Below the pieces are notes generated by a model that saw only the letters and a list, made by a program, of their open reading frames with translations, had not been told where the DNA came from and did no database searches. A stretch of 32,906 nucleotides of DNA from Clostridiaceae bacterium (GTDB lineage: Bacteria; Bacillota; Clostridia; Oscillospirales; Acutalibacteraceae): the NCBI GenBank assembly GCA_016285645.1, contig JAEERC010000024.1:1-32906 (forward strand). Reading direction: 5' to 3'. A program made the position numbers and the translations under genes. Shown piece by piece: positions 11,826-27,923 of this stretch; positions within the stretch are counted from its first letter, which is position 1, and each line of letters begins with the position of its first letter.

Positions 11826-12995
11826 TTAAAGTGAATTTATCATTGTTATATGCTCGATATAAAAAGGTCTCACATTGTTCGTCATAAGCAGTCCGCCCTG
11901 AAGGGACATATGGTCGCCGTGATACACGGGCATAATATTCCACTCGCCCGGCTCCACGCTGCCCGCCTCGTATTCCTTCTGCGGCGCGTTGAACGGCGCC
12001 TTCGCCGAAATCGTGTTTACAAGGCCGTCGTTTTCCTGCCAGCTTTCGTCAAGCACCGTGCCCTCGGGAGTGACTCCCGTGTATTTCACAATGAGTTTCG
12101 CGCTGTTTACAAAAAGCGGCTCCATTCCGTTCGTGTCGGCAACCCAGGTGCCGTCCTCATCCTGATATGACATACTGCAGGCGTAGGAGAAATAGTAGAT
12201 GCCCGGTATGGTCTTTATCTTTTCGTTGAGATGAGCCGCTCCGTCAATATCCATATCGTAGGAGGCGGAATCCTCGAAAATCCTGCCGTCCGGGTTTTCG
12301 CGCGAGGCGAAGAACATCACCTTTGTTTCGAGCACCTCGGGTATTGTGCCGCCGTTGTCCTCAACGCCGTGACCCACGAGATAGGCGGTTGTGCCGTTGT
12401 GAGGTGAGGCGAGGGTTGTGATGCTGTAAATCCAGTCCTCCTTGCCGCCCGTGAACAGACCCGAAATCTCGTTTTCATCCGTCACCGCCTGCTCCTCCTC
12501 GCTGCCGTACGCCATAAGGGTCGCGAGCATACGGATTGTTGCCCCGCCGAAGGAGTGGCCGAAAAGGTTTATCTTGTTTTCGCTGTCCCATTTGTCAATG
12601 AGCGGCTTTTTCGAGTAGTCCGTGCCGTATCTGTCGTGGCCGCAGCGTCCGGAATGCTCTTTTCCGTAGTCAACCCTCGTGCCCGTAAGCTGGGCGTAGA
12701 GCTCGCACACCCTGTCCCAGGTGCTGTCCGAGGGCGCGACGGACGCGGCGGCGCAGTCTATACCGCGGGCGCTCAGATATTTCATCAGATTCCCGCCGAG
12801 TATTCCCCAGTAAGGGAAAATGTCGTAGTAGAAAGCGTAACTGCCCCAGCCCGAAAGCCCGTGCACGAAAACATAGGTGTAATCCGTGTTGAAAGCGGAT
12901 TTGTCAATCTCCGCCTTCGGTATGTTCGCCGCGGGAACAAGGAACATTATAACCGCCGTAAACAGCGAAACGATTTTCTGAATTATTATCTGCAT
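11826..12995 (-). CDS. Exported triacylglycerol lipase, family I.5-like alpha/beta hydrolase
   Basis: 389 residues with an N-terminal signal peptide (~1-23). VFVHGLSGWG is the oxyanion-hole strand. GHSFGG carries nucleophile Ser148, the Asp is in ENDGLVNTIS (Asp323) and the His in GDHMSLQG (His362). The order and surrounding words match Staphylococcus/Geobacillus lipases (family I.5). The family's zinc-binding insert is also recognisable (YGKEHSGRCGHDRYG, His114 and His120; SYDMDIDGA supplies the likely Asp), as is TLASPHNGT. It likely hydrolyses glycerides or other esters outside the cell. Start codon fits the upstream AAGGAGAG site. First gene of the lipase-GH16 operon. Confidence 0.92.
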   Translation of the reverse strand: MQIIIQKIVSLFTAVIMFLVPAANIPKAEIDKSAFNTDYTYVFVHGLSGWGSYAFYYDIFPYWGILGGNLMKYLSARGIDCAAASVAPSDSTWDRVCELYAQLTGTRVDYGKEHSGRCGHDRYGTDYSKKPLIDKWDSENKINLFGHSFGGATIRMLATLMAYGSEEEQAVTDENEISGLFTGGKEDWIYSITTLASPHNGTTAYLVGHGVEDNGGTIPEVLETKVMFFASRENPDGRIFEDSASYDMDIDGAAHLNEKIKTIPGIYYFSYACSMSYQDEDGTWVADTNGMEPLFVNSAKLIVKYTGVTPEGTVLDESWQENDGLVNTISAKAPFNAPQKEYEAGSVEPGEWNIMPVYHGDHMSLQGGLLMTNNVRPFYIEHITMINSL

Positions 12996-18019: not shown

Positions 18020-18673
18020 ATGGAAGAACTGTTCATTCTTGTTTTTGAACTCGCGGGCACGGTGGCGTTTTCCGTTTCGGGAGCGCTGACCGCGATAGAA
18101 AAAAAGATGGATGTGCTCGGCGTGATGATACTCGGGCTGTGCACCGCGACAGGCGGCGGGATAATACGCGATCTTATTCTCGGCTACACGCCGCCCGCGG
18201 CTTTCCGCACCCCGCTTTACTCAATAGTCGCCCTGCTCACGGCGGTAATCATATTCCTGCCACCCGTCACGCGCTCAATCAGGAAAAACGCGCGCAAGTT
18301 TTACGCTGTGCTCACGGTGTTTGACTCGCTGGGTCTGGCGATTTTCACGGTTGTGGGCATTCAGGCGGCTCACACCGAATCGGACGCGCACGGAGTTTAT
18401 CTTTTCCTGTTTGTCGGCGTGCTGACCGGTGTAGGCGGCGGAGTTATGCGCGATATTTTCGCGGGCGAGCGCCCCTCCGTATTTGTTGAGCACATATACG
18501 CCACGGCGTCCATTCTGGGCGCGGCGCTGTGCATTGCCCTCTGGGACACGGCGGGCAGTTACCTTTCAATGCTCGCGGGCTCCGTCTTTATTTTCATACT
18601 GCGTGTTCTTTCCGCGCATTACCGCTGGAACCTCCCGAAAGCCGAAATACAGGAGGAAAACAGCACAAAATGA
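18020..18673 (+). CDS. TRIC cation channel family membrane protein (YicG/UPF0126-like)
   Basis: 217 residues with about seven hydrophobic segments arranged as two similar halves. Each half carries the glycine-rich family motif: LGLCTATGGGIIRDL and GVLTGVGGGVMRDIF. Bacterial TRIC proteins form trimeric monovalent-cation channels. The start lies 6 nt after the aminopeptidase stop with no clear ribosome binding site, which suggests translational coupling. Its TGA overlaps the ATG of the transposase gene (ATGA). Confidence 0.93.
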   Translation: MEELFILVFELAGTVAFSVSGALTAIEKKMDVLGVMILGLCTATGGGIIRDLILGYTPPAAFRTPLYSIVALLTAVIIFLPPVTRSIRKNARKFYAVLTVFDSLGLAIFTVVGIQAAHTESDAHGVYLFLFVGVLTGVGGGVMRDIFAGERPSVFVEHIYATASILGAALCIALWDTAGSYLSMLAGSVFIFILRVLSAHYRWNLPKAEIQEENSTK

Positions 18674-19164
18674 ACAGTCTTCCGAAAAGAAAGCACCCTC
18701 GGCTTAAGCACTATGATTATTCGCAGAACGGCTGTTATTTTGTAACTGTCTGCGTTTCGGATAATTCTGCTGTGTTATCCTGCGTTTCCGCATCAAACGA
18801 AGCCGAGAAACCCGTTGTTGTTCTTACGGAATACGGCAAAGCGGTTGAACGGCAAATACTCCGCGTCTCGGAAGTTTACAATACGGTTAGTGTTGAGAAA
18901 TATATCATTTTACCGAATCATATTCATATTCTTTTCCGGTTTGACAATTCTTGCGGCGGGATTGGGGAATCCCGCCCTACAGAAAAATGTCCCCGATTAT
19001 CTGTGCTGATCCGCGGATTCAAATCAATGGTAACAAAAGAAATCGGAAAACCTATATGGCAGAATTCATTTTATGAGGAAATCATAAAAAATGAAGAACA
19101 TTATCTGCAAGTATGGCAATATATTGATTCAAATGCTCAAAAATGGCTTCAGACTCACCCCTGA
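18670..19164 (+). CDS. REP-associated tyrosine transposase (RAYT), Y1/HUH family
   Basis: 164 residues. N-terminal LKHYDYSQNGCYFVTVCV and the HUH metal motif in LPNHIHILF (His84, His86) identify the IS200-like Y1 superfamily. C-terminal IWQNSFYEEIIKNEEHY (candidate nucleophile Tyr135) and YIDSNAQKW match the RAYT group. RAYTs nick single-stranded DNA at REP hairpins. Residues 96-104 (GGIGESRPT) are encoded by a perfect REP palindrome inside the gene, just after the HUH motif, and an inverted copy lies 6 nt after the stop. The gene is less GC-rich than its neighbours and its ATG overlaps the TRIC stop, which suggests acquisition. Confidence 0.9.
   Translation: MNSLPKRKHPRLKHYDYSQNGCYFVTVCVSDNSAVLSCVSASNEAEKPVVVLTEYGKAVERQILRVSEVYNTVSVEKYIILPNHIHILFRFDNSCGGIGESRPTEKCPRLSVLIRGFKSMVTKEIGKPIWQNSFYEEIIKNEEHYLQVWQYIDSNAQKWLQTHP
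18955..18980 (-). repeat. REP palindrome with GTAG foot inside the RAYT gene (stem type A)
   Basis: Minus strand: GTAG, stem GGCGGGATT, loop CCCC, stem AATCCCGCC. Identical over 26 nt to the plus-strand copy at 19171-19196. It lies wholly within the transposase coding sequence and keeps the reading frame. Confidence 0.85.
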
Positions 19165-19170
19165 AAAAAC

Positions 19171-19196
19171 GTAGGGCGGGATTCCCCAATCCCGCC
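19171..19196 (+). repeat. REP palindrome with GTAG foot downstream of RAYT (stem type A)
   Basis: GTAG (19171-19174), stem GGCGGGATT, loop CCCC, stem AATCCCGCC, starting 6 nt after the RAYT stop. With the inverted copy at 18955 it forms a head-to-head pair about 190 nt apart, like a BIME. It also separates the RAYT gene from the GH31 gene and could act as a weak terminator. Confidence 0.85.
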
Positions 19197-19267: not shown

Positions 19268-21271
19268 ATGATTAAAATCACCGCACTCGGCAAGGGATTT
19301 GAAATATCCCGCAACGGAAGAACAATCTACAGCGCCACGGTCGGCACGGAGGTTTTCCGCGTCGGCACGGGCTCCTGCGTCTATTCCATGAACAGGGGCA
19401 GTTTCTCGGTAAAGGAAAAAATAAAATCCGTCAAGGGCATCCGTCTTGTTGAGGCGGCGGTGTCCCCGGAGGGCGTTGACCTCTGGCTCACCGAGGGTTC
19501 GCTGAGAATAAACCTCATCGGTGAGCGCGTTGAATTCCGCTTCTCCGACTTTGATTCCTACAACCGCCTCTGGATAAAAATTCCCGCCGCCGCGAGGGAG
19601 CACATCTACGGCTGCGGCGAAATATTCACCGAGTTTGACCTGCGCGGCAAAACGGTTGATGTCTGGGTATCCGAGCACATCAACGCCGCCTCCATAGCCA
19701 AAAAACTCGTCAAGATTGCCACGGGCAGGCGCGATTCGCAGAAGAAGGAAAAATTCGAGAAATACGAAACCTACTACGCCCAGCCCACCTTTTTAAGTTC
19801 GGATAAATACTATTTCCACTCCTTCGCCTCCTCCCGCGTGCAGTTCGATTTCACAAACGCCCGCTGGCACGGTGTAAAAATGGACTCCGTCAGCGATTTC
19901 GTGCTCGGCTTCGGCGACACCTTTGAGGATGTTATGGGCGATATCACCGCTGTTGTCGGCAGGCAGCCCGAACTGCCCGACTGGGTGTATGACGGCGAAA
20001 TTCTCGGCATTCAGGGCGGCACCGAGCTTATGATGAGCAAGGTTGACAACACCCTGCGCCACGGTATGAAGGTAAACGGCGTCTGGATTCAGGACTGGGA
20101 AGGCAGGCGTATAACAGCCGCGGGCAAACAGCTTATGTGGAACTGGGAGTGGGACAGAGAACTCTACCCCCGCCTCGATGAAAAGATAAAGGAACTCAAC
20201 GCAAAGGGCATAAAGGTTCTCGGCTACTGCAACCCCTTCCTCGCCATTGAAAAGCCACTCTACGACGAGGCGACCGAGAAGGGCTACTGCGTAAAGGACA
20301 AGGACGGCGACGACTACCTTGTAAAAATCACCACCTTCCCCGCCGCCATGCTCGACCTTACAAACCCCGAAGCGTGGGAATGGATGAAAAATATAATCAA
20401 GAAGAATATGATTGAATTCGGTCTCTCCGGCTGGATGGCGGACTTCGGCGAATATCTGCCGACGGACTGCGTACTTTACAGCGGCGAGGACGCCGAGCTC
20501 GTTCACAACACCTGGCCGGCACGCTGGGCTCAGTTAAACCGCGAGGCGGTCGAGGAGAGCGGCAAGCTCGGCGAAATAATGTTCTTCACCCGCGCCGGCT
20601 ATTCCGACACTCCGCGTTACTCAACAATGATGTGGAACGGCGACAACCACGTGGATTTCAGCGTTGACTACGGTCTGCCGTCCGTAATTCCCGCAATGCT
20701 GTCGCTCACCTGCTGCGGCTTCGGTTTAAGCCATTCCGACATAGCGGGCTACACCACCTTCGCCGTGCTCAGGCGCAGCGAGGAACTCTATATGCGCTGG
20801 GCGGAGATGAACGCTTTCTCGCCGCTTATGAGAGGCCACGAGGGCTTGAACCCCGATCTGAACGCCCAGTTTGACGCGAGCGACGAGGTGCTCAATCACT
20901 CGGTAAGAATGTCGCGCATTCACGCCGCCCTGAAGCCGTATATCAAAGAGGCGGTTAAATACAACGCCGAAAAGGGCGTCGGAGTCGTGAGGCCGCTGTT
21001 CTTCCACTACAACGAGGACAGGGCGTATAAAGAGGGCTATGAATACCTGCTCGGCAGGGATATCCTCGTTGCCCCCGTGCTCCGTCCGAAAGCGGACTCC
21101 CGCGAGGCGTGGCTCCCCGATGACGAGTGGATTCATCTCTGGAGCGGCAAGGAGTATAAAGGCGGCACCGTCACCGTGCCCGCGCCCGTTGGCAACCCGC
21201 CCGTATTTGTACGCAAAAACGCAGACCCCGCTCTGCTTGAAATAATCAAAAATATCAATATCGGAGGATAA
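19268..21271 (+). CDS. GH31 glycosidase, YihQ sulfoquinovosidase-like
   Basis: 667 residues, no signal peptide, so probably cytoplasmic. Numbered against E. coli YihQ (from memory), the active site aligns with a constant offset of -13: nucleophile Asp392 in GWMADFGEYLPTD (YihQ D405), acid/base Asp459 in MMWNGDN (D472). Sulfonate-pocket positions: Gln249 in LGIQGG (Q262), Gln275 in WIQDW (Q288), Trp291 (W304) and Tyr495 in SDIAGY (Y508) are kept, but YihQ R301 is Gln288 (codon CAG). The known function is hydrolysis of sulfoquinovosyl glycerol to sulfoquinovose; here the missing Arg makes the substrate uncertain. The alternative is a glucosidase of the same subfamily. ATG has CGAGG upstream; the transaldolase gene follows after 4 nt. 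Confidence 0.9.
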   Translation: MIKITALGKGFEISRNGRTIYSATVGTEVFRVGTGSCVYSMNRGSFSVKEKIKSVKGIRLVEAAVSPEGVDLWLTEGSLRINLIGERVEFRFSDFDSYNRLWIKIPAAAREHIYGCGEIFTEFDLRGKTVDVWVSEHINAASIAKKLVKIATGRRDSQKKEKFEKYETYYAQPTFLSSDKYYFHSFASSRVQFDFTNARWHGVKMDSVSDFVLGFGDTFEDVMGDITAVVGRQPELPDWVYDGEILGIQGGTELMMSKVDNTLRHGMKVNGVWIQDWEGRRITAAGKQLMWNWEWDRELYPRLDEKIKELNAKGIKVLGYCNPFLAIEKPLYDEATEKGYCVKDKDGDDYLVKITTFPAAMLDLTNPEAWEWMKNIIKKNMIEFGLSGWMADFGEYLPTDCVLYSGEDAELVHNTWPARWAQLNREAVEESGKLGEIMFFTRAGYSDTPRYSTMMWNGDNHVDFSVDYGLPSVIPAMLSLTCCGFGLSHSDIAGYTTFAVLRRSEELYMRWAEMNAFSPLMRGHEGLNPDLNAQFDASDEVLNHSVRMSRIHAALKPYIKEAVKYNAEKGVGVVRPLFFHYNEDRAYKEGYEYLLGRDILVAPVLRPKADSREAWLPDDEWIHLWSGKEYKGGTVTVPAPVGNPPVFVRKNADPALLEIIKNINIGG

Positions 21272-21275
21272 AACA

Positions 21276-21965
21276 ATGAAGTATTTTCTCGACAGCGCAA
21301 AAATCGATGAAATCAGGGAGGCGTATTCCACCTTCGGCATCGACGGCGTAACCACCAACCCCAACCACATTATGAATTCGGGCAAGCCCTTTTACACCGT
21401 AATAGCGGAACTCGCCGCTTTCGTCAAGGAAAACGGTCTTGAGGGCTATGAGAAATTCCCCGTTTCCGTTGAAATCAATCCCCATCTCGACGATGTGGAC
21501 GAAATGATCGCCATGGCGCGCAAAATAAGCGGTATGTGCGAAAACTTCGTCATCAAAATCCCCTGCACCGCTTCGGGCATAACCGCCGCGAGAGCGCTCG
21601 AGAAAGAGGGCATCCGTACAAACCTCACACTCGTATTCTCCGCTTCGCAGGCGATCATAGCCGCCAAAAACGGCTCGCTCTTCGTCTCCCCCTTCATCGG
21701 CTGGAAGGAGCAGAGCGGCGAGGACTGCGCGGCGTATATAGCCGACATCGTCGATATCTATAAAAACTACGGCTACTACGGCAACACTCAGATTATCTGC
21801 GCCGCCGTTCGCACGGGCAAGCAGATTGTTGACTGCGCCGTCGCCGGAGCCGACATTGTCACCGCGGGTCTTCAGGTCTATAAGGACAGCATGTATCACC
21901 CCTTCACGGACCTCGGCCTTTCGAGATTCCAGAACTCCTGGGACAAAACCGTAACTACGGAATAA
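21276..21965 (+). CDS. Small class I transaldolase, putative 6-deoxy-6-sulfofructose transaldolase (SftT-like)
   Basis: 229 residues, the size of the fructose-6-phosphate-aldolase/short transaldolase branch. MKYFLDSA and GVTTNP are the start and Thr/Asn motif; NFVIKIPCT carries Schiff-base Lys94; TNLTLVFSASQA, FVSPFIGW and IVTAGLQVY complete the TIM barrel. The phosphate-binding word ASFR/ASFK of ordinary transaldolases is here AAVRTGK, i.e. Ser to Ala. Being 4 nt behind a YihQ-like gene, it most simply fits the sulfo-TAL pathway, where SftT cleaves sulfofructose and moves dihydroxyacetone to an acceptor, releasing sulfolactaldehyde. The alternative is an ordinary transaldolase. GGAGG lies 8 nt before ATG. 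Confidence 0.85.
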   Translation: MKYFLDSAKIDEIREAYSTFGIDGVTTNPNHIMNSGKPFYTVIAELAAFVKENGLEGYEKFPVSVEINPHLDDVDEMIAMARKISGMCENFVIKIPCTASGITAARALEKEGIRTNLTLVFSASQAIIAAKNGSLFVSPFIGWKEQSGEDCAAYIADIVDIYKNYGYYGNTQIICAAVRTGKQIVDCAVAGADIVTAGLQVYKDSMYHPFTDLGLSRFQNSWDKTVTTE

Positions 21966-22047: not shown

Positions 22048-23670
22048 ATGGAAAAAAGCGCTGCGAACACCGCCGCAGGCGAAAAGCTCAATTATAAGCG
22101 GACTTTTCTTATCGGCTTCGGCTTTATGGGCTGTATGCTTATGTGGTCGGTGTACAATTCCTATGTCCCCGTAATATTCAGGGCAAAGCTCACCGAACTC
22201 ACGGGCGGCAATCTTCCCGCCTTCCTCTCGGTCGCGCTTCTCGTCAACGCCATTATGACAATCGATAATGTCTTCGGCGTCATCTTCCAGCCGTTCTTCG
22301 GCAAAAAGAGCGACCACACCCACTCAAAACTCGGCAAAAGAATGCCCTACATCATCATCTGCCTTCCCCTGTGCGCGCTCTTCTTCAGCTTCATTCCCGT
22401 CGCGGCAACCGTCAAGGCGGCAGGGCTGAGCATCGCGCTTATGATGAGCGTCATCATCTTCTTCAACTTCACAATGTCCGTATGGCGCTCCCCCGTTGTT
22501 TCGCTTATGCCCGACTTCACGCCCTCGCATCTTCAGTCCGACGCAAACGCCGTTATCAACATTATGGGCGGCGTAGGTCAGATGATCGGCTTCGTTGTCG
22601 GCACAATAGCCACCGCCGTTGTCGGTCTTCTCGGCTTTACGGCTCTTCACGACGCCCTCAAGGCAAAAACCAACACCCTCGGTCAGATTCTCGAGGTTGA
22701 CGCGGAAGGCGTGCCTGTTGTCAGATATCTTGTTGACAAAGCATCAATCGACGCCACCCGCCTTGAAAACTTCATTGAGAGCGGACGCGACACCCTCACA
22801 ATCGACGGCAAGGATGTTGCCGTAAAGGTCGCCAAACTCACAAACGGCGAACCCACCTATGTAAACTACACGCCCATTTTCGTAATCTCCGCGGTTATCG
22901 CCGTGCTCTGCCTCGTTGTTCTTGTGGCTTTCTACAAGAGAAACAAGCAGTATGACCTCTCCGCGAAGGTTGAACTTGAATCGGCTGAGGAAAAACCCAA
23001 AAAGATAAAAATCCGCGATCTCCCCATCACCAAGGCGGAAAAAAGAAGCCTGCTCGTTATGCTCGCTTCCCTTTTCCTTATAAACAACGCCACCGAGGCG
23101 ATTGTTCCCAATTTCACGAACTTCGCGCTTGACACCCTCGATGTCAAACCGATTTACTCAACTCTTATGATGGCTATTTTCGCCGTCTCCCTCGCCGCCT
23201 TCGGCATTCCCGCGGGCGCCATGGGCAGAAAACTCGGACGCAAAAAGACCATTATAATCGGTCTCAGCGTAATAGTCATAATGTTCGCGATTTATCTCGC
23301 CGTTTCACAGTTTATCAACAATAAGACATTCACCTGGATAGTTCTGTGGATTGCTCTCGTTGTCGGCGGCGCCGCCGTCGGGTGCATCAACATAAACACG
23401 CTTCCGCTTGTTCTTGCCATCGGCGGGCGCGAATATGTCGGCACCTTCACGGGCTATTACTACACCGCCACCTTCTCGGCTGCAATCACCGGCCCCATCC
23501 TCTGCGGTCTTGTTGTCGGTCTGTTCAATGACGACTACAACTTCATGTTCCTGTTCTGCGCGATTATGTTCGCTCTCGGTCTTGCCGTAATCACTCAGGT
23601 TAAACACGGCGAATCCAATGAGATAAGCGAAAAAGAACTTGAACAGATAAGAATGGAAAACGAAGACTGA
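22048..23670 (+). CDS. MFS/GPH-type sugar:cation symporter
   Basis: 540 residues with 12 predicted TM segments. The cytoplasmic loop FGKKSDHTHSKLGKRMPYI is the conserved G-x-x-SD-x-x-x-x-x-x-GKRRPY-like motif of GPH and SUT-type sugar symporters, and a second occurs as GAMGRKLGRKK. A soluble insertion of ~75 residues (about 210-285, TNTLGQILEVDAEGV to YVNYTP) separates TM6 from TM7 and is larger than usual. As the gene after GH31 and transaldolase, it probably imports the glycoside or sulfosugar (role of YihO/YihP in E. coli); inference. AAAGGAG precedes ATG; the next gene starts 19 nt after the stop. Confidence 0.85.
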   Translation: MEKSAANTAAGEKLNYKRTFLIGFGFMGCMLMWSVYNSYVPVIFRAKLTELTGGNLPAFLSVALLVNAIMTIDNVFGVIFQPFFGKKSDHTHSKLGKRMPYIIICLPLCALFFSFIPVAATVKAAGLSIALMMSVIIFFNFTMSVWRSPVVSLMPDFTPSHLQSDANAVINIMGGVGQMIGFVVGTIATAVVGLLGFTALHDALKAKTNTLGQILEVDAEGVPVVRYLVDKASIDATRLENFIESGRDTLTIDGKDVAVKVAKLTNGEPTYVNYTPIFVISAVIAVLCLVVLVAFYKRNKQYDLSAKVELESAEEKPKKIKIRDLPITKAEKRSLLVMLASLFLINNATEAIVPNFTNFALDTLDVKPIYSTLMMAIFAVSLAAFGIPAGAMGRKLGRKKTIIIGLSVIVIMFAIYLAVSQFINNKTFTWIVLWIALVVGGAAVGCININTLPLVLAIGGREYVGTFTGYYYTATFSAAITGPILCGLVVGLFNDDYNFMFLFCAIMFALGLAVITQVKHGESNEISEKELEQIRMENED

Positions 23671-23689: not shown

Positions 23690-24562
23690 ATGGAGAGAAA
23701 AGTACCTAAGGGCTACGCGGTGATGTGGGTAATTTTCGCCGCCGCCTACGCAATCTGGATGATTTTCTTTATGCCGAAATATGTTCTTGACAACTATGAG
23801 AATATGCTTTCGGAAATGACCATCGACGGCAAGGTTTACGGCAACCTCAGCGGTATGGTCGGCGCGCACTGGCTCTATCCCCTGTGGGTCATCTTTTCCG
23901 TCGCCTCGCTCCTGCTTTTCATTTTCTATCTCAAAAAATTCCTCTATTGCGAAAAGCAGACCAAGGGTATGGCTGTTGCCGCCTGCGTTATTCTCGTTGT
24001 CGGCTGCGCCTTCGTCGTCGGCTACGGTTTCCTCGGCGAGGAGCCCTTCATCGACAAGGTCAGATATATAACGGCAAGCATGATAGGTATGAACTACCCG
24101 TGGATGTTCCGCCTCTGGGGCGTGCTCGGAGCGGCGAGTCTGTTCATCAACACGCTCTACTGCTACCGCAAATTCAACTATAACAGCAAGGTCGGCATAA
24201 TCGCGGGTTCAATCGGCGCGGTTGCCATCTATGTAACGGTCAACTGCCCCTCGATGGGCGAGAAGGCGCTCTCGTTCTTTCCCCGCCCCCGTATGGTCGG
24301 CCACTGGGCGGGCGCCCTCATATTCGCGTTCGGCTGCGCCGTGCCCGTTGTGCTGTTCCTTTTCAATTCAGCCAAAAGATTAAAGGGCAAATTCGCCGTC
24401 ACGGCGGTTGTGTTTGTAGCCCTGCTCCTGCTTATGCTCGCCCTTCTCATCTTCGTAGGCAAGAGCGCCATTATTGAAAATATCCCGATGGTCGCGGCAT
24501 ACGCCCTTCTTCTCGCGTTCAACTTCACTCATTTCTACGACGAGGCAATCATAACGGAATAA
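23690..24562 (+). CDS. Unknown 8-TM membrane protein
   Basis: 290 residues, about eight hydrophobic helices (starting near residues 9, 63, 93, 145, 165, 205, 235, 262). Loops carry the repeated dipole GxxGxxxWxxPL/GMNYPWMFRLWG and FFPRPRMVGHWAG. No family recognised. A ribosome binding site AAGGAG lies 6 nt before ATG, and the gene is co-directional and closely spaced behind the transporter, ending in a strong terminator. It is therefore part of the transporter unit, perhaps an accessory permease subunit or an exporter of a sulfonated product; that is speculation from position only. Confidence 0.8.
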   Translation: MERKVPKGYAVMWVIFAAAYAIWMIFFMPKYVLDNYENMLSEMTIDGKVYGNLSGMVGAHWLYPLWVIFSVASLLLFIFYLKKFLYCEKQTKGMAVAACVILVVGCAFVVGYGFLGEEPFIDKVRYITASMIGMNYPWMFRLWGVLGAASLFINTLYCYRKFNYNSKVGIIAGSIGAVAIYVTVNCPSMGEKALSFFPRPRMVGHWAGALIFAFGCAVPVVLFLFNSAKRLKGKFAVTAVVFVALLLLMLALLIFVGKSAIIENIPMVAAYALLLAFNFTHFYDEAIITE

Positions 24563-25430: not shown

Positions 25431-26597
25431 TTATTCTCCGTCAATCGCCGCGGTTATGCGGCGCAGGTCGGTGTCGGTCCAATCGGGGCTTATGTCGAGG
25501 TAAGCCGTGCGTGAGAGCAGATCGAGCGATTGCGCGCACATATCGGGCGTGTAATTCATATTGAGCCCCTGATTTTCCTTCATTTTGAAGGGATCCATCG
25601 CGGGGTGGAGCGCCCCTCTGCGCTCCATAATCTGGGTCCAGTTGCAGTAAACGTGCTTGCCCGTGTCAAACGGAACGGTTATGCCGATTCCCTGTTTTTC
25701 CATCTTTTCCTTGAACGCGCGGCAGTCCTTTTCGCTGTCAAAACGGAAGGCGGCGGCAGTGCAGCACGCGCCGTCAAAATCGTTATACGGTATGGGCTTT
25801 ACGGTTTTCACATTTTCATAAACCGCCCTGCAGTTGCGCCTTAAATCGGCTAAAATGCCGGGCAGTCGCTTCAGCTGCTCGCGCATAATCGCGCCCGTGA
25901 TGTCGGACACCCTGTATTCCGCCCCGCCGAAAAGCGGCTCGCTCACCTCGCTGAGCTGGTCGCCGAAGAACGCTACGGCGCTCGCGTCGTGATAGATGAG
26001 CGCACGCTCATAAACGCGGCGGCTGTTTGTAACAAGGGCTCCGCCCTCGCCCGAGGTTATCACCTTGAAAATGTTGAAGCTGAACGCCCCCGCGTCGCCT
26101 ATGGAGCCGAGATATTTGCCGTGATACATGCCCCCGTCGGACTGGCAGGCGTCCTCGAGAACGGCTATGCCGTGCTTTTTCGCGATTTCGCAGATTGCGT
26201 CCATATTTGACGGCAGACCCATTATGTGAACGGGAATAACCGCCTTCGTATGCTCCGAAATATTCTTTTCGAACGATTCGGGGCTCAATGTCATCGTTTC
26301 GTCAATGTCGGCTATTACGGGAATCGCGCCCGCGCCCGTGACCGCGAGAGCCGTGGCGATATAGGTGTAGGCGGGAACAATAACCTCGTCGCCAGGACCT
26401 ATGCCGAGAGCCACCAGCGCCGATTCAATAGCGGCGTAGCCCGAGGTCATCAGCAGGGTGTATTCGGAGCCGACTGTTTTGCTCCACTCCTCCTCGAAGT
26501 GCTGAACCTCCCTGCCCGCGTCGTTTATTTTGAAAAACTGTCCCGATTCGAGCGTGCGCTCAACAGCGAGCGCCTCCTCCTTGCCTATTCTGTACAT
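25431..26597 (-). CDS. DegT/DnrJ/EryC1/StrS-family PLP aminotransferase
   Basis: 388 residues. PLP-fold words: TSGYAAIESALVALGIGPGDEVIVPAYTYIATA, ADIDETMTLSPESFE, VIPVHIMG, VLEDACQSDGG (Asp149) and AFSFNIFKVITSGEGG with Schiff-base Lys178. The family transfers amino groups from Glu or Gln to keto-sugars for envelope glycans or natural products, or catalyses related dehydrations. No sugar-nucleotide genes are nearby; instead it is the last gene of an operon with a ceramidase-like hydrolase (12 nt upstream) and PrsW. Substrate unknown; the family assignment is firm. Confidence 0.92.
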   Translation of the reverse strand: MYRIGKEEALAVERTLESGQFFKINDAGREVQHFEEEWSKTVGSEYTLLMTSGYAAIESALVALGIGPGDEVIVPAYTYIATALAVTGAGAIPVIADIDETMTLSPESFEKNISEHTKAVIPVHIMGLPSNMDAICEIAKKHGIAVLEDACQSDGGMYHGKYLGSIGDAGAFSFNIFKVITSGEGGALVTNSRRVYERALIYHDASAVAFFGDQLSEVSEPLFGGAEYRVSDITGAIMREQLKRLPGILADLRRNCRAVYENVKTVKPIPYNDFDGACCTAAAFRFDSEKDCRAFKEKMEKQGIGITVPFDTGKHVYCNWTQIMERRGALHPAMDPFKMKENQGLNMNYTPDMCAQSLDLLSRTAYLDISPDWTDTDLRRITAAIDGE

Positions 26598-26609
26598 AGC
26601 GCGCCTCCG

Positions 26610-27923
26610 TTAACCGTTTATTATTCTGAGAATTTCGTTTATGAGATTCTGATCGGTCGCGTCCTCAAGCAGGAAGACGCTGCCGTTCAGGAAGCATTCC
26701 ACCTCATAGCCGCCGAGGCAGAGCTGATCCTGCGTGGGCAGATAGAAGTTGTAGCCGTTCGCGTTTGAGAGAACCAGTGTGTGGGCGAAACGGGTTTTTA
26801 GATAGTGCCTGAGCCGCAGCGATATTCCCGAAAACACCTCGAAGGGAACGGGTATGAACAGCGCTTCGCCCAGCGAGACCATCGCCGTGGGAATCTCCTT
26901 CGCCTGCGGCGCTTCTTCGCCGTCGGACAGGAATTTTTCGGTGTCCTTGAGATGCTTGTATTTGAGCGCGAATATGTTTGTAAGATTTTCTGCGTTGCCG
27001 AATTCCTCGAGTTTTTCTTTTATCTCATCGTGCGAGGGCATCGGTTTATAGGGCAGCCGCACGGTGCCTCTGAAGATTTCAAGCTCCCCGCTTCTGTATG
27101 AACCGAGCGAGTTGAGCGCCCTTACAGCGTCAAAGGCGGCAACCGAGCCGAGTTCCTCAATATATGTGATGTCGCCGACGGTCGAGCCGTTTGTAAGGCG
27201 CGGACCCGTGTCGCCGACCGTACCGTTCCAAAAGGCGGTGAGCGTGCCGGTCAGTTCCCGCACCCTGTCGCACATTCCGCCCGACCAGTCGCGGCTGATT
27301 TCGCGGTTTTTGCCGCCCGCCGTGCCGTGGCAGCCGTAGTGAATCATATTGATAATTCCCTTTTTCGTCTCGGAGTTTCTCACGGCGATGAAGGTCATTT
27401 CCGGGTCAAAACTTCCCCACGGATTTTGACCGAACTCTATTCTGCCGTCGGGCATCTGCTGCCTGCGGTTTACGCCGACTTCGCTTCTGACCGTTGAATA
27501 CGCGATTTCCGCGGGCGCGAGCGCCGAGAGAGCGTCCACGGACGCTTTTACTATGCCGGGCAGGAAGAATCTGTCAACATAGGGGCGGTCAACCTCGCCC
27601 CAGCCCTCCGCTCCGGCCACATTCGGCGCGGAGTGGGTATGGGTGGCGGCAATCATAATATTTGAAACGGGCACGCCCGTCTTTTCCGAAACGGCGCCCC
27701 TTATCTCATCGGAAAGTTCCGTCTGCAGATCGCCCACGGTGACGGTTATGAGCAGTGCCGTCTGCCCGTTCTGACTGACAGCCAGAGCGGCGGCGTTCAG
27801 CGGGTCGTGCACAGAGTCGCTCTCCCAGCCCGGTTCATAGCCGTAAAGGCAGGTGCCGATTTCGGGGGTTATATCCGCCGAAGCCGCCCCCGCGAGGAAT
27901 ACATTTTTATCGTACGCGCTCAT
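26610..27923 (-). CDS. Neutral/alkaline ceramidase N-terminal-domain-like hydrolase
   Basis: 437 residues, no signal peptide. FLAGAASADITPEIGTCLYGY and IAATHTHSAPNVAGAEGWG (His95, His97) are the zinc-binding start of the neutral ceramidase fold; IINMIHYGCHGTAGGKN and DWSGGMCDRVRE continue it. Compared with true neutral ceramidases it is short and lacks the C-terminal domain, as is usual for bacterial homologues of unknown substrate. These probably hydrolyse an amide; ceramide activity should not be assumed. The start fits GAGGAGG. Middle gene of the PrsW-hydrolase-DegT operon. Confidence 0.88.
   Translation of the reverse strand: MSAYDKNVFLAGAASADITPEIGTCLYGYEPGWESDSVHDPLNAAALAVSQNGQTALLITVTVGDLQTELSDEIRGAVSEKTGVPVSNIMIAATHTHSAPNVAGAEGWGEVDRPYVDRFFLPGIVKASVDALSALAPAEIAYSTVRSEVGVNRRQQMPDGRIEFGQNPWGSFDPEMTFIAVRNSETKKGIINMIHYGCHGTAGGKNREISRDWSGGMCDRVRELTGTLTAFWNGTVGDTGPRLTNGSTVGDITYIEELGSVAAFDAVRALNSLGSYRSGELEIFRGTVRLPYKPMPSHDEIKEKLEEFGNAENLTNIFALKYKHLKDTEKFLSDGEEAPQAKEIPTAMVSLGEALFIPVPFEVFSGISLRLRHYLKTRFAHTLVLSNANGYNFYLPTQDQLCLGGYEVECFLNGSVFLLEDATDQNLINEILRIING

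Follow-up and report, generated by a model that had tools for sequence, protein, structure and literature searches.

The YihQ-like GH31 gene and its surroundings

The window analysed here is a stretch of 32,906 nucleotides that makes up all of contig C38 of genome G000, a 2.6 Mb draft with a completeness of 97.88. It carries a gene for a GH31 protein of the YihQ group and, beginning four bases past the GH31 stop, an SftT-like gene; the pathway genes of G000 are scattered over three contigs. The features are given below in window coordinates except for the last two lines. Codons of single residues were assigned by alignment to YihQ, and all codon coordinates other than that of Gln288 were obtained by arithmetic.

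19268–21271, + strand: GH31 protein of the YihQ group, motif QQQWY, 667 aa (sequence and structure matches)
19676–19708, + strand: residues 137–147, loop with a four-residue insert that replaces YihQ QG-VGRNK (alignment)
20012–20014, + strand: Gln249 codon (YihQ Q262)
20090–20092, + strand: Gln275 codon (YihQ Q288)
20129–20131, + strand: Gln288 codon, CAG, aligned to YihQ R301 (alignment)
20138–20140, + strand: Trp291 codon (YihQ W304)
20330–20335, + strand: Thr355-Thr356 codons (YihQ G368-E369), accompanying Gln288; putative sulfonate contact (arithmetic)
20441–20443, + strand: Asp392 codon, aligned to YihQ D405
20642–20644, + strand: Asp459 codon, aligned to YihQ D472
20750–20752, + strand: Tyr495 codon (YihQ Y508)
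21276–21965, + strand: SftT-like sulfofructose transaldolase gene (match to BmSF-TAL, 8bc3, E = 8.1e-87)
22048–23670, + strand: MFS sugar-type carrier, a possible importer of sulfo-sugar glycosides (family search)
23690–24562, + strand: membrane protein, no family match; also behind the MFS gene in four close relatives
G000 contig C6, 56787–58109: SftI-like isomerase, 66% identical to the SftI-like protein of locus L103 (function by similarity)
G000 contig C47, 11311–12162: sulfolactaldehyde-reductase-like gene, 76% identical to the operon protein of locus L088 (function by similarity)

The GH31 protein scores 788 bits (cut-off 553) against the NCBIfam equivalog PRK10426, a model named alpha-glucosidase that we take to stand for YihQ. 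The barrel (PF01055, 149.1 bits) and the C-terminal domain (PF21365, 74 bits) are both matched above cut-off and the N-terminal domain (PF13802) below it. Its six best sequence matches among solved proteins are sulfoquinovosidases, the closest being YihQ (5aed, E = 1.7e-199), 8r56 (2.8e-195), 6pnr (9.8e-175) and the A. tumefaciens enzyme (5ohy, 7.5e-154). An AlphaFold model derived from 29 sequences (mean pLDDT 87.4, pTM 0.90) retrieved sulfoquinovosidase chains at all Foldseek ranks from 1 to 23 (TM 0.89–0.92), followed at rank 24 by another GH31 protein (TM 0.73). G000 holds no second close match to this protein and three distant ones (E = 7.7e-28, 9.2e-28 and 1.1e-16).

The fingerprint of sulfoquinovosidases in GH31 is QQRWY or KERWY, in which the arginine binds the sulfonate. 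The first-pass annotation had placed a glutamine at this position, and alignment to E. coli K-12 YihQ confirms that the canonical arginine is absent from the window protein and that Gln288 stands in place of R301; its codon lies within the interval 20092–20142 given there, and re-alignment with YihQ and the A. tumefaciens enzyme upheld the exchange. The partners Q249, Q275, W291 and Y495 are kept, as had been claimed, and the catalytic pair D392/D459 is present too. YihQ D472, the counterpart of Asp459, is presumably the acid/base. YihQ D405, the counterpart of Asp392, is the catalytic nucleophile (PMC11968277). The numbering offset of 13, which had been called constant, is so through the barrel (262 to 249, 288 to 275, 301 to 288, 304 to 291, 405 to 392, 472 to 459, 508 to 495) and breaks down in the N-terminal domain (152 to 136, 155 to 143). 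Four kinds of solved sulfoquinovosidase do keep the arginine, with Gln/Gln in YihQ (5aed), 8r56 and 6pnr and with Lys/Glu in the A. tumefaciens enzyme (5ohy). Since the window protein is without the fingerprint arginine, it is not a canonical member of the YihQ group and could only work like one.

The product of the adjoining gene is much closer to BmSF-TAL than to the next other kind of solved transaldolase (E = 3.6e-45). Its HIMNSGKPF and GWKE stretches match sulfofructose transaldolase, and Arg-type loci have HIMLSGKPF. On C6, TauE and GPH genes adjoin the SftI-like gene; the reductase encoded on C47 has domains of the 3-hydroxyisobutyrate-dehydrogenase type. SftI and the reductase are absent from the window, and a missing pathway would hint at another substrate; this reading was rejected because both genes were found elsewhere in G000. 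DUF4867 (SftX) had no match in this genome.

Between a glycine-transporter-like gene and the GH31 gene lies a gene resembling REP-associated tyrosine transposases (18670–19164, + strand), at 49.7 bits under the model cut-off of 80. Imperfect palindromes of 20 bases, with ten exact copies in the genome, occur inside it (18956–18975) and behind it (19176–19195); in the relatives L040 and L042 the same gap measures less than 40 bases between matches. About 6 kb before the GH31 gene, 11826–12995 (− strand) encodes what appears by eye to be a secreted lipase-like protein, which could be a candidate sulfolipid lipase. At 25431–27923 (− strand), a DegT-family aminotransferase gene adjoins a neutral-ceramidase-like gene, with no evident tie to the sulfo genes.

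Spread of the glutamine and the residues that accompany it

We scanned public genomes with six query peptides, one of which spans the glutamine, and kept the best 80 of 91 relatives. The motif QQQWY, which the first-pass annotation had proposed to look for across homologues, occurs in 71 of these 80, next to one QQHWY, seven QQRWY and one protein truncated before the motif; the scan is biased towards the query, so that 71 of 80 is not an unbiased frequency. The relative with histidine (L096 / L022) lies on a contig end. Record titles of many public relatives name Clostridia from rumen or gut samples. The 71 glutamines are encoded by CAG (57) and CAA (14), and dN/dS values of 0.02 to 0.16 in five pairs indicate purifying selection.

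Genome samples of increasing taxonomic breadth were searched as well. In the genus of the source, 23 of 45 genomes hold a GH31 match (E ≤ 1e-60), with glutamine in 19, histidine in one and arginine in three. At E ≤ 1e-100, 12 of 200 genomes of the family match (11 Gln and one Arg, in G212); the family genome G145 also holds a distant GERWE protein. An Arg-type query matches seven of 391 genomes of the class: four Arg, two Gln (G000 included) and the mixed genome G351, whose three YihQ-group GH31 proteins comprise two Gln types and one Arg type (L188, L189). Seven of 398 genomes of the phylum match, namely G000 and G709 with Gln, G744, G999 and G920 with QQR, G866 with KERWY and one with a partial protein. 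Plasmid records gave 35 matches, all below 60% identity among the matches listed (20 of 35).

We assembled 102 distinct near-full-length proteins, 81 with glutamine (78 QQQWY, 3 QQQWF) and 21 with arginine (18 QQRWY and one each of QQRYF, KERWY and GERWE). A first tree unites 77 of the 81 Gln rows in a single clade (SH-aLRT 100). The glutamine also occurs outside this clade, in a group of six that mixes three Gln and three Arg rows and in L116, from a Spirochaeta MAG, which attached to a long branch. We also computed a slower tree from 54 of the 102 rows, with position 301 masked and two long rows excluded; it again recovered the main Gln clade (31 of 35 Gln rows, support 100/100) and grouped L116 with the mixed Gln/Arg rows (support 100/97). 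On this tree, the history of position 301 comprises three changes in the best tree, and well-supported branches force at least two. The Gln protein L175 and the Arg-type one of G744 share 72% identity, so that the state of residue 301 differs between close relatives. A further sample of the mixed group comprised only four genomes, two of them with a match.

The exchange at Gln288 is one of a set of changes that the first-pass annotation had not seen. We took 71 rows of the main Gln clade as its core and use YihQ numbers for positions. V150, H153, K158, R293, F337, T368, T369, A373, R438, N473, H474 and N541 do not vary within this core and set it apart from most Arg types; another stretch, four residues longer, takes the place of the GVGR(N/D)K loop, YihQ G368-E369 is changed to Thr-Thr and R541 to Asn. 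Among all 81 Gln rows, 80 have Thr-Thr at 368–369 and one has Thr-Ala. An acidic residue at 369 occurs in none of the 81, as against 19 of the 21 Arg rows, the exceptions being L169 (GA) and L038 (FS). Outside the main clade, L116 has an altered loop with R541 retained, and the Gln rows L170, L173 and L175 keep both GVGRNK and R541, for which reason these two were rejected as partner changes of 301; R541 agrees with it in none of three independent pairs. At F337, T368, A373 and R438 all four rows agree with the core, and position 369 is non-acidic in each of them; F337 and R438 are also found in some Arg rows. Average agreement over the three independent pairs is 3.0 for Ala373, 2.7 for Thr368, 1.9 for the acid and 1.8 for Arg438, numbers too small for any covariation test to reach significance. 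Positions 368–369 and 373 thus track residue 301 best. In GH31 structures, the −1 subsite is lined by the residues that precede the DxTNP motif, so that a contact of the 368–369 stretch with the C6 group is plausible. YihQ E152 and R455, taken to correspond to the residues with which the A. tumefaciens enzyme contacts glycerol, do not vary in any of the 102 rows.

Pathway genes around Gln-type and Arg-type GH31 genes

Among 73 non-Arg public loci, with gene families assigned by Pfam, SftT is present in 64, in 57 of them at most 200 bp downstream of the GH31 gene, SftI in 60, the reductase in 58 and DUF4867 in 47; TauE occurs in 46, a GPH carrier in 44 and a ROK regulator in 27. Many public contigs end early; of the 43 loci with at least 8500 bp downstream, 38 hold SftT and 40 SftI. 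The nine loci without SftT are L047, where 69 bp are left at the contig end, L116 and one clade of seven. In these seven (L090, L091, L092, L094, L095, L097 and L098), the Gln-type GH31 gene is followed by DUF4867, with SftI in six and neither SftT nor the reductase nearby; this is either a shortened cluster or another pathway.

Within the genus, GH31, SftI and the reductase find matches in the identical 23 of 45 genomes, a co-occurrence for which, given shared descent, a simple probability would be misleading, and SftT lies beside GH31 in 20 of 20 non-Arg genomes. DUF4867 is above cut-off in only three of the 45 genomes, G014, G024 and G027, and absent from all 20 non-Arg genomes; perhaps SftX is not a defining pathway gene. 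These three are also the genomes with an Arg-type GH31 in the genus. Since they alone of the 23 have DUF4867, the Arg-type and Gln-type pathways are not identical.

The Arg-type GH31 gene of G014 is located on C21, where 19 kb yielded no further gene of the pathway; C19 of the same genome carries SftT, the reductase, DUF4867, SftI, TauE, ROK and GPH together, with no GH31. Its SftT is 89% identical to the SftT of a Gln operon; the SftT proteins of all three genomes are nearest to Gln-type rows, with no well-supported branch. L186 represents the reverse case, a Gln-type GH31 gene accompanied by SftI and a reductase that match Arg-type copies best. One genus in which seemingly the same pathway operates with either GH31 type offers a clean test of the role of the arginine.

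Gln-type genes also occur in other settings. L116 has transketolase halves and an isomerase of the RpiB type in its vicinity, which tentatively assigns it to the sulfo-transketolase pathway. Near L187 lie a class II aldolase and an SftI-like protein (48% identity to SftI) whose Pfam match is below cut-off. A pathway called sulfo-EMP2, with class II aldolase and SftI-like genes, is described in PMC12890257 and PMC9594981, and the setting of L187 resembles it, so that this assignment, too, would be tentative. At L188 a binding-protein carrier alone stands beside the two Gln-type GH31 genes, and L181 and L184 have few or no other pathway genes. The Arg-type GH31 gene of G351 belongs to a cluster that contains transaldolase as well as transketolase genes.

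Sulfonate recognition and comparison with known systems

We consider it likely that the window gene works as an alpha-sulfoquinovosidase despite having no canonical arginine. The Gln variant is real and conserved. The enzyme is most likely active as a sulfoquinovosidase whose sulfonate pocket differs, and sulfoquinovose is thus probably recognised in more ways than the established one. Sulfoquinovosyl glycerol would be hydrolysed by the usual two-step retaining GH31 mechanism. Tentatively, we predict a Gln/Thr contact to the sulfonate: the Gln288 amide, Trp291, Tyr495 and probably Thr355/Thr356 would hydrogen-bond to it, with a neutral Gln/Thr pocket in place of the Arg301/acidic-369 pair. Of the readings that the first-pass annotation had offered, such another contact is the best supported, as something we infer; pLDDT in the AlphaFold model is below 50 at residues 281–288, 462–464 and 492–496, which form the pocket, and a model of this confidence at Gln288 cannot show an alternative contact. 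Released sulfoquinovose would pass to the SftI-like isomerase, SftT and the sulfolactaldehyde reductase, and the sulfonate would exit by a TauE-type carrier, the window GH31 feeding the sulfo-transaldolase pathway. This pathway can occur without a YihQ-type GH31, as reported for Caproiciproducens in PMC13219744, and gene linkage is therefore no proof of function.

Possible, though doubtful, is a sulfoquinovosidase in which a basic residue elsewhere supplies the charge of Arg301. R425 (YihQ Y438) would be the best candidate by alignment, position 438 being Arg in 80 of the 81 Gln rows and Lys in the remaining one, but R438 is present in four Arg rows too. None of the 71 core rows departs from R280, H137, K146 or H461, yet several Gln rows outside the core lack them; R280 was rejected as the replacement charge, not being conserved in all Gln rows. 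A switch of the GH31 protein to a different glycoside, one of neutral, 6-sulfated or otherwise 6-substituted glucose, with the linked pathway supplied by free sulfoquinovose or by sugar that others release, is improbable. In its favour, the clade's core is devoid of the arginine, R541 and the GVGR(N/D)K loop, and pathways without YihQ exist (PMC13219744). The altered specificity considered by the first-pass annotation is nevertheless at odds with the tight SftT linkage and shared presence in the genus, with the sulfo-transaldolase genes at most non-Arg loci, with Foldseek ranks occupied by sulfoquinovosidase chains, and with three genus genomes that pair the pathway operon with an Arg type in place of the Gln type. 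Gln types near sulfo-transketolase-like genes (L116) and near class II aldolase and SftI-like genes (L187) argue against it as well, as does the retention of the sulfonate-site partners and of the presumed glycerol contacts. That a decaying or very poor enzyme hitch-hikes with the operon is very improbable: several changes do fall in the active-site region, but dN/dS stays low in all five pairs and every one of the 71 core rows keeps the catalytic pair and the QQ-WY partners. That CAG is a misread CGG, one base away, or a polymorphism of the strain was rejected outright, given a glutamine fixed across many genomes (71 of the best 80 of 91 public relatives, 19 of 23 matching genus genomes), the use of both codons and the purifying selection.

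It is quite possible, if short of probable, that GH31 sulfoquinovosidases have a second, widely distributed subclass in the Gln types, which would bind the sulfonate in an uncharged Gln/Thr pocket, have switched state at this residue more than once and serve more than a single sulfoquinovose pathway. PMC13219744 describes a rich yihQ pool in the cow rumen, a large share of it on a long branch with a Mariniplasma protein; the largest variant group (64% of 1220, 47.5% of 1548) lies apart from the known Clostridia cluster. We guess that this long branch is the Gln clade, and the Gln type may be the main rumen yihQ type, an ecological weight that is conjectural. Judged from its primer names (1201–1526), the amplicon of that study would miss codon 301, so that the change could go unnoticed; searches of its main text for terms on the residue returned no mention. 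Literature text searches found, in the text that they covered, no sulfoquinovosidase with a changed R301, although an earlier mention may exist. If many natural enzymes do without the arginine, (i) motif-based annotation misses a large group, (ii) the basis of sulfonate recognition needs restating and (iii) probes or inhibitors built on the arginine contact may not report on all communities.

Comparison with known systems places the window protein closest to E. coli YihQ (5aed, 5oht), with which it shares the fold, the Asp pair, the Gln/Gln/Trp/Tyr partners and a full-length alignment; it differs in Gln for R301, Thr-Thr for G368-E369, Asn for R541 and the replaced GVGRNK loop, and it stands with sulfo-transaldolase genes, whereas E. 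coli has sulfo-EMP genes. SftG of E. rectale (6pnr) and BmSQase (8r56) are alike in sequence family and pathway partners, yet both keep the arginine; the gene order of the Arg-type loci L109–L112, L115 and L118 is unlike that of Gln-type loci. SftG and two other enzymes are active on PNP-sulfoquinovoside, with conserved sulfonate recognition residues (PMC11968277). Table 1 of that paper lists kcat/KM values on PNP-sulfoquinovoside from 1.1e5 to 6.4e5 per M per s; the 6.4e5 given for YihQ disagrees with the kcat and KM of that row, from which about 6.5e4 follows. A changed sulfonate-site residue in a sulfoquinovosidase cluster, recognised from sequence and neighbourhood, is also known for GH188 (PMC11465081); this family is unrelated and NAD-dependent, unlike GH31, and its changed residue makes contact through the backbone, for which reason the site was modelled as intact. 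In the KERWY enzyme of A. tumefaciens (5ohy), the two glutamines are changed and the arginine is kept, the reverse of the window protein, and its activity (PMC11968277) shows that partner residues may vary in working enzymes.
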